Below are positions 5,069-6,646 of a stretch of 64,000 nucleotides of DNA, piece after piece. Numbering within the stretch: the stretch's first letter is position 1; every line of letters starts with the position of its first letter. The DNA lies in assembly GCF_024464185.1 (NCBI RefSeq), contig NZ_JANHAU010000002.1:1-64000 (forward strand). Direction: 5' to 3'. The position numbers and the translations under genes are program-made. This DNA is from Haloarchaeobius salinus (GTDB lineage Archaea > Halobacteriota > Halobacteria > Halobacteriales > Natrialbaceae). The notes below the pieces were generated by a model. The model was not told the origin of the DNA. It searched no databases and worked only from the letters and a program-made list of their open reading frames with translations.

Positions 5069-5277
5069 TCAGACCCCCGACGCGTATCTCGGAAGTACTT
5101 CCTCCAGAAGGTCCTCGACGATTTCCCAGAGGATCAGCGACGGCGTCTGGTGTTCGAACGTGACTCCCCACCGGTCTTCCTCGTCGTCGGCCGAGTACTG
5201 GAAGTGGGCTCGACCGAGTTCGGTGTGGTCTTCGTCCTGGTGCCAGCCGGCGTGGAACCCGGTGCTCGTGTCGCTGT
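5069..5277 (-). pseudogene. 3' part of a gene split by the 586-bp element
   Basis: This part encodes the C-terminal 69 residues of a haloarchaeal protein (beginning YSDTSTGFHAGWHQ and ending in an acidic amphipathic tail). The 5' part lies at 5872-6112. Removing the element and one copy of the 8-bp target repeat restores a continuous 149-codon frame across the junction (FRVN then YSDTS). The inserted copy instead ends the upstream part with three foreign codons and a stop. The function is unknown. Confidence 0.8.
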
Positions 5278-5285
5278 AGTTGACC

Positions 5286-5302
5286 GGCTCTGTTGAAATC
5301 CT
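5286..5302 (+). repeat. Left terminal inverted repeat of the IS6-type element
   Basis: GGCTCTGTTGAAATCCT is a perfect inverted match to 5855-5871. The next bases differ between the two ends. Confidence 0.9.
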
Positions 5303-5436
5303 CAATCCGTGACAGATTTGGGGATAATCGGTACGTACAGGAACCTCACGTACCGATTGCCTTGTTGAACTGCTTCCCACCTGTCAAGAACGCCGCCGAC
5401 ATACAAAGCATCTATCCAGCACAACGGTTGCGTCTA

Positions 5437-5473
5437 GTTCACCGCAAACGGGCGAATCACTCGTTCGGTGAAC
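5437..5473. terminator. Stem-loop downstream of the amphi-Trp gene
   Basis: GTTCACCG (5437-5444) and CGGTGAAC (5466-5473) form an 8-bp stem around a 21-base loop, 12 bases past the amphi-Trp stop on its strand. It could end the cargo transcript or be part of the ancestral transposon end. Confidence 0.35.
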
Positions 5474-5484
5474 GTGCGGTGTGA

Positions 5485-5772
5485 CTACTCGATTTCTAAC
5501 TGATCACTTCCGCTGCTCTCCTGACCGTCGTTCTCGTCCCATTCGAGTTCGAACTCGATACTTCGTTCAGTCATGTTGCCAGCCGGGCCTTCGCGTTCAG
5601 CTTTGACTTCGAAGGTCGGTCGGGCAGGAGGATTCAGCGTTACAGACTCGGAGCCTGCTTTCAGCTTGATAGCGTTGCCGCTGTCGAGATTGTCCGCGAC
5701 TTTCCGGAGGTACGATGCAATCTCTTCTCGACTCTGGACACTCTCCGATTTGAACAGAACTTCTTCAGGCAT
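5485..5772 (-). CDS. Amphi-Trp domain protein (cargo of the IS6-type element)
   Basis: A 95-residue protein starting MPEEVLFKSESVQSREEI. It matches the haloarchaeal amphi-Trp family in the opening KSE.QSREEIA.YLR block, the central VTLNPPARPTFEVKAEREGP and the C-terminal IEFELEWDE strand. The biochemical role of this family is not known. I chose the ATG at 5772. A TATA-like TATTTATC about 30 bases upstream (5803-5810) lies inside the element, so the gene travels with its promoter. The protein looks intact and is the sole coding content of the mobile element. Confidence 0.85.
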   Translation of the reverse strand: MPEEVLFKSESVQSREEIASYLRKVADNLDSGNAIKLKAGSESVTLNPPARPTFEVKAEREGPAGNMTERSIEFELEWDENDGQESSGSDQLEIE

Positions 5773-5854
5773 ACAGGAGATAGTACACAGCCCGCACCGA
5801 TAAATACGCAACCCCACTCACCGGCTGTTTCACCGCAGATAGTATCGAACTAAT

Positions 5855-5871
5855 AGGATTTCAACAGAGCC
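5855..5871 (-). repeat. Right terminal inverted repeat of the IS6-type element
   Basis: AGGATTTCAACAGAGCC is the exact reverse complement of 5286-5302. It is followed immediately by the AGTTGACC target repeat at 5872-5879. Confidence 0.9.
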
Positions 5872-6112
5872 AGTTGACCCGGAACCAGTCGTGCGGCGTC
5901 TGTCTGTACCAGCCGATGACTAGTTCCGGGAGCTCTGGACCAGTCGGGGGTTCGAGTCGAGAAGGGTCGAACGTCGTTCGCAACTGCTTCGCTTCGACCT
6001 CGTCCGGAACGTATTCGACGGCCGTTATCTGTGGGACGCGGTCGAGGACATCCCGCTTGAGCTGTGCGTACAGATTGGCGTTCGGGTCGCCACCCGGGTG
6101 TTGGACGGCCAT
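5872..6112 (-). pseudogene. 5' part of the gene split by the IS6-type element
   Basis: This part encodes the first 80 residues of the split protein (MAVQHPGGDPNANLYAQL to HDWFRVN). In the present sequence translation continues three codons into the element (WLC) and stops. The start codon is only three bases after the stop of the winged-helix gene at 6116-6646, so the two form a tight operon. Such HTH-plus-small-protein pairs recur in haloarchaeal accessory regions and may be toxin-antitoxin-like. That role is inference; the family has no known function. Confidence 0.8.
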
Positions 6113-6115
6113 TCG

Positions 6116-6646
6116 TCAGTTGTTGGCTTCGGCACGGTCAGCGGTCGGTGCCAGGAAGTCCCACTCTCGGATCGCGAAGCCGACGATCTGGATGCGACGC
6201 TGGAGGTGGTCCCAGTCACGTGCGACGTCTCTCCGACGCTTCTCCTCGTCGGGTCCGACGTGGCTCTCGGCGACCGTCGCGCGGAGCTGGTTCGGGGATT
6301 CGACACCGAACTCGTCCTCCCACTCGCGAATGCGGTCTTTCATCTCCGCGAGACGGTCGGTCAGCTCCTCGACCGTCTGCGCCCCGTCGCGGAGCCGCAT
6401 CGCCTCCTGCATCGCCTGCCGACGATAGTCCGGGGAGTACGTCGTGTGCGTCCCGCTGTCGTCCCGGTGCAGAACCCCGTCTTCGACCAGTCGTTCGAGG
6501 ACGCGCTTCGTCGGCCCGTGTGACCACTCGGCCTCGGAGGCGATCCAGTTCGCCGTCCGTGGCTCCGAGAGTTGACGGGCGACCATTCGGACGCGGTCCT
6601 CGCCTGTGGTCTGTCGCTCCACGAGGCTTGGTTCCTCGTCGGTCAT
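6116..6646 (-). CDS. Winged-helix regulator, first gene of a split two-gene module
   Basis: A 176-residue protein. Residues 20-75 form a winged helix (ASEAEWSHGPTKRVLERLVE, then a GVLHRDDSGTHTTYSPD wing). A coiled-coil-prone acidic and basic stretch follows (ELTDRLAEMKDRIREWEDEF), then a C-terminal helical domain. It resembles haloarchaeal HTH proteins that are encoded with one small downstream partner. Here the partner is interrupted by the IS6-type element. If the pair is an antitoxin-toxin or regulator-effector unit, the insertion has left the regulator alone. Confidence 0.7.
   Translation of the reverse strand: MTDEEPSLVERQTTGEDRVRMVARQLSEPRTANWIASEAEWSHGPTKRVLERLVEDGVLHRDDSGTHTTYSPDYRRQAMQEAMRLRDGAQTVEELTDRLAEMKDRIREWEDEFGVESPNQLRATVAESHVGPDEEKRRRDVARDWDHLQRRIQIVGFAIREWDFLAPTADRAEANN

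Follow-up and report, generated by a model that had tools for sequence, protein, structure and literature searches.

A transposase-less amphi-Trp element in Haloarchaeobius salinus has IS5-type ends and looks like one of a widespread gene-carrying transposon format

Introduction

A short segment of the genome of Haloarchaeobius salinus has the termini of an insertion sequence (IS) and a single gene that is not a transposase. This raises the questions of what kind of element it is, what could have moved it, and whether other genes are carried in the same manner. It lies at positions 5286 to 5871 of the 64,000-nucleotide stretch of DNA analyzed here (the window). An initial annotation, made from the sequence of the window, had described a non-autonomous unit of the IS6 type and suggested that transposition of this kind might account for the distribution of amphi-Trp genes.

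Anatomy and insertion of the element

The unit of 586 bp is bounded by 17-bp terminal inverted repeats, GGCTCTGTTGAAATCCT, both exact, at 5286 to 5302 on the plus strand and 5855 to 5871 on the minus strand. These are the only two sites in 64 kb that match with up to three mismatches, where 0.04 would be expected. They are flanked by an exact 8-bp target site duplication, AGTTGACC, at 5278 to 5285 and 5872 to 5879. The GC content of the element is 52%, compared with 63-68% for its surroundings. The sole real gene within it (5485 to 5772, minus strand) encodes an amphi-Trp protein of 95 amino acids, matching PF20068 across the full profile (E = 6.4e-36) and TIGR04354 above the cut-off. The promoter region of this gene (5773 to 5809, minus strand) includes a TATA box, TTTATCGG, near -30 that is conserved in its relatives, and neither a transposase nor the remnant of one was found inside the element. 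In length, perfect repeats, exact duplication, lack of transposase and a single complete gene with its own TATA box, the unit is as the initial annotation had it.

The element splits a host gene (5069 to 6112, minus strand) that has no Pfam match. When the element and one copy of the duplication are deleted in silico, a reading frame of 149 amino acids is restored, and the rejoined protein aligns without interruption to homologs (74-81% identity) from over 20 genomes of the host family. The insertion is therefore real, and the target of the 586-bp unit was a conserved gene. That its two halves remain open suggests that the event was fairly recent. No second copy of the entire unit was found, so its mobility is seen solely through this one insertion. 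Taken with the ends, the duplication, the complete gene and the missing transposase, the empty site bears out the reading of the unit as a passenger-carrying, non-autonomous transposable element. PADLOC gave no match for the interrupted gene; the adjoining DUF7342 gene (6116 to 6646) has a weak match to the PADLOC candidate PDC-M05A (E = 6.5e-4).

An IS5-family transposase in partner elements

Of 125 genomes from the host family, 111 have the 17-bp end with at most one mismatch; a reversed-pattern control gave 0. We paired convergent ends and read the content between them for genes. Many pairs enclose a transposase of 273 amino acids that scores 219.6 bits against NCBIfam NF033579 (cut-off 140), placing it in the IS5 family; it also matches PF01609 (2.6e-18), with DUF772 slightly under the cut-off. 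In almost all copies its ATG is 52 bp inward of one end. It is by the transposase found between the same ends in its partners that we assign the ends of the window unit, which itself lacks one, to the IS5 family. These elements may belong to the ISH1 subgroup, which would fit the length of their duplications, exact at 8 bp in 47 cases among the matches listed. Two genomes of the same phylum from outside the order (G455 and G464), possibly halophilic methanogens, contain 10 and 4 exact 17-bp ends, and nothing closely related to the 273-aa transposase was found in them.

Similarity between ends reaches about 60 bp inward, forming conserved arms of three types. The P arm adjoins the transposase, and the D arm (CCTATT...TGAAACAGCC) is the transposase-distal type. 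The N arm (TGATAGGTTT...GTGCTGAATACAG) occurs mostly in cargo-only elements and at the distal ends of a few autonomous ones, so that it may usually be served by another transposase not seen here. The window unit has one arm of type N (5286 to 5340, plus strand; E = 1.5e-9) and one of type D (5813 to 5871, minus strand; E = 5.7e-14), scored with profiles trained without amphi-Trp elements. An 11-bp inverted repeat, AATCGGTACGT/ACGTACCGATT (5326 to 5358), spans the inward boundary of the N arm. Homology among amphi-Trp copies starts exactly at 5809, right at the inward limit of the D arm, leaving almost no spacer between that arm and the promoter-bearing gene. We also looked within the arms for an inverted copy of the tip that might serve as another binding site, and dropped the idea because the best candidates had four to six mismatches in 12. 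Elsewhere in the host genome a solo D arm (C7:172453; E = 5e-11) has no partner end nearby.

Varied cargo between the same ends

Among the matches listed we collected 81 end pairs, 61 from the host family (the window included) and 20 from other families of the order; being picked from those matches, they do not give unbiased proportions. Exact 8-bp duplications flank 47 of the 81 among the matches listed, and 11 of the 20 in the replication set outside the host family; when flank pairs were reshuffled, none matched at 8/8. Lengths range from 125 to 2917 bp. A transposase is present in 25 of the 47 exact-duplication elements (22 alignable at full length and three broken), usually with another gene on its far side. 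It is missing from the other 22, most of which carry a passenger instead, such as a hydrolase, PAS, HalOD1 or GYD protein, an SBF transporter or a small membrane protein.

Cargo confirmed by Pfam, in a list that includes some elements with duplications of 7/8 or less, comprises a TehB-like methyltransferase (L066, and L063 by similarity), an alpha/beta hydrolase (L055), HalOD1 (L064, L214), GYD (L155), PAS (L189), an AsnC-type regulator with DUF7344 (L178), cupin (L183), a threonine-synthase-like PALP enzyme (L186), RDD (L068), an HTH_10 regulator (L153), phosphatidylserine decarboxylase (L165), an SBF transporter (L215), Usp (L220), a BrkB-like membrane protein (L221), a luciferase-like monooxygenase (L222) and a PQQ propeller (L065). 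Cargo that lacks a Pfam match includes lipoprotein-like frames and many small membrane proteins. The same cargo recurs in the same layout in separate genomes for the methyltransferase (L063/L066), a membrane protein (L164/L191) and a lipoprotein-like frame (L051/L168/L170). Two apparent cargo frames (L152 and L184) are, by inspection, nested foreign transposases, IS110-like and IS66-like respectively. The host itself has a second cargo-only element of 1054 bp (C1:323439-324492) with duplication CTTCTGCC and a gene for a 212-aa membrane protein. The search of the host and other Halobacteria that the initial annotation proposed thus yields transposase-less siblings with varied cargo, and its idea of a general cargo system is well supported by the 47 exact-duplication elements among the matches listed and their many cargo genes. 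Overall, the format appears to be a widespread one for gene-carrying transposons.

Two further kinds of element have these ends. An IMG/VR contig (L211, 9928-10843) contains a 916-bp element with the exact duplication TGGTACTC and an HNH protein. Non-coding 125-bp miniature elements (MITEs) in G064 and G045 (L159, L172) have the same tips and a different interior; they are multi-copy in G064, and exact duplications flank two of three cases checked.

Movement of amphi-Trp genes

The flanks of the 80 closest amphi-Trp relatives from named genomes were compared. Ten of the 80 have a recognizable arm within 155 bp in the correct orientation, and there are 13 arm matches beside the 80 against 0.5 expected. 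Most of them have no clear arm or ends, and searching de novo for further kinds of terminal repeat near the 80 gave nothing convincing. In Halomicroarcula sp. SYNS111 an element of 1649 bp (L076; duplication 7/8) holds amphi-Trp with an IS5-type transposase that is itself interrupted, and in Haloarcula amylovorans a 451-bp element (L079; duplication 7/8) has the order N arm, gene, D arm. N arms lie on both sides of amphi-Trp in Halorubrum aquaticum (L072) and Halalkalicoccus (L110), where the duplication has decayed. These differing arrangements across genera suggest that amphi-Trp has been transposed repeatedly. The initial annotation had held that its proposal would fall if these ends enclosed amphi-Trp nowhere else; L076 and L079 provide such copies.

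The D arm lies upstream of amphi-Trp in the window and downstream of it in L079 and L076, an opposition that points to more than one capture of the gene, with arm exchange also possible. In several genera there are inner relics of the D arm that lack tips and end 14-19 bp after the amphi-Trp stop codon, and at about 10 loci, several of them weak, an N-type motif stands at one fixed offset downstream of the gene; these motifs were partly picked after viewing the same flanks, and we weigh them as supporting only. At the DNA level the window gene shares 93-94% identity with a Haloarcula copy and 68% with its paralog in the same genome, a pattern in line with horizontal transfer. The suggestion that amphi-Trp genes spread by transposition therefore holds in part, for the ten relatives with arms and perhaps for those with relics, and does not extend to the majority, which have no clear ends.

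No clear ends adjoin the other amphi-Trp genes of the host (C1:1217704, C1:536295 and C5); a paralog at C5:94890-95152 is broken by a stop codon or frameshift. At another locus (L080, 5808-6897) another unit bounded by arms, about 1090 bp long, lies next to a partial amphi-Trp element; the flanks of this unit are not duplicated, and its 252-aa frame resembles, by eye, a creatininase-type amidohydrolase. A structural model of the amphi-Trp protein (pLDDT 80.9) has one helix and four strands. It found no match in the PDB (best E = 0.6), so we infer no function; PADLOC likewise gave no match, and the family name did not occur in the literature searched.

Mobilization of the element and competing explanations

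The 586-bp unit is very probably a non-autonomous, gene-carrying member of one set of haloarchaeal IS5 transposons that make 8-bp duplications, moved by a transposase of the 273-aa type. Autonomous members consist of an end, 52 bp, the 273-aa transposase, one or more passenger genes and the second end; in cargo-only members a complete gene with its own promoter replaces the transposase between two arms of about 60 bp with the same 17-bp tips. A transposase of the 273-aa type in the same cell would have recognized both arms and moved the unit in trans into the 149-aa host gene, after which the cargo may have been expressed. The host genome (3.85 Mb) contains no close intact helper, its nearest transposase relatives being 34-42% identical and broken or partial, so the unit is probably stranded there now; the assembly is in 17 contigs, and a helper copy could have been overlooked. 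Transposases of about 40% identity were considered as helpers and set aside, as their ends differ (GGCTGTGTTGAATCGC and similar).

The element might instead have arisen simply by internal deletion from an autonomous IS5-type parent, keeping its passenger by chance and having no further significance. In favor of this, amphi-Trp stands beside a broken transposase of the same family in L076, and one end of the window unit is of the transposase-distal type. However, the other arm is of type N and not the transposase-side P type, and the orientation of amphi-Trp relative to the D arm is opposite to that in both L076 and L079. We consider this explanation unlikely, if worth keeping in mind.

Origin from the IS6 family was a reasonable guess, since IS6 elements have 8-bp duplications and an end motif of GG..cTGTt..aaa (PMC7986276) and the window unit has both the duplication, which is not exclusive to IS6, and a GG...CTGTT...AAA tip. 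Yet the model of the IS6 transposase domain, PF13610, finds nothing in the host genome while it does detect the domain in control genomes, and where a full IS6 partner with matching ends had been anticipated, the elements with those ends encode the IS5-family transposase instead, well above its cut-off. The IS6 label is accordingly rejected, and such an origin is very improbable. That two separate solo ends happen to flank ordinary host DNA containing amphi-Trp deserves almost no credence, for while solo ends such as the D arm at C7:172453 do exist, the exact duplication, the uninterrupted host gene in relatives and the low GC content of the insert all speak against it.

Discussion

Having placed the unit among IS5-type transposons, we may ask what the arms imply. 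They could constitute a dedicated haloarchaeal gene-cassette format, in which two standard arms of about 60 bp (N with D, or N with N) repeatedly capture single promoter-bearing genes, amphi-Trp among them, and are moved by shared IS5-type transposases; we put this forward tentatively, as plausible rather than probable. If it is true, much of the traffic in small accessory genes among Halobacteria would go by way of these elements. Patchy small genes are common in haloarchaea, and their spread is usually unexplained; the elements supply a concrete vehicle, and a possible route for amphi-Trp. The vehicle is recognizable in sequence, in that any gene with an N arm on one side and a D or second N arm on the other, flanked by an 8-bp duplication, can be called as a passenger. 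The arms that each transposase recognizes and the size of the cargo pool can now be tested directly.

Among known short elements, a MITE has no coding capacity, which excludes the window unit with its complete 95-aa gene, despite the non-coding 125-bp siblings. ISH2 of Halobacterium and HqIRS32 of Haloquadratum are likewise short, transposase-less haloarchaeal elements with a non-transposase reading frame (PMC3119063), mobilized in trans by ISH8 (PMC10264941). They differ in having mostly 10-bp duplications, termini of the ISH8 type and one fixed frame, and so represent another end family. ISH1 shares the 8-bp duplication (PMC10264941, table). Transposases of about 40% identity occupy compact ISs of 925-940 bp, mostly with GGCT ends and 8-bp duplications; unlike the window unit, these and ISH1 have no room for a cargo gene.

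The closest known kinds are mobile insertion cassettes (MICs) and transporter ISs (tISs). MICs hold a passenger gene between IS-type ends. They are IS derivatives that have lost the transposase but can be moved by a related one, and tISs combine a transposase with unrelated passenger genes within one IS (PMC3129680). The window unit has the anatomy of a MIC, namely IS-type ends, a complete passenger gene, a target duplication and no transposase, and would be moved in trans. It differs in that the haloarchaeal arms fall into a defined set of conserved types, and in that many unrelated passengers use one format across an order of archaea. Transposase and passenger occur together in L056, L066, L186 and others, and the autonomous members and L076 fit the tIS description, whereas the window unit, lacking a transposase, does not. 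The literature searched gave no description of tISs in haloarchaeal IS5 and no report of haloarchaeal IS5 elements with passengers. The principle is already covered by MICs and tISs together; what is new lies in the scale, in arms that are standard and in cargo that recurs.
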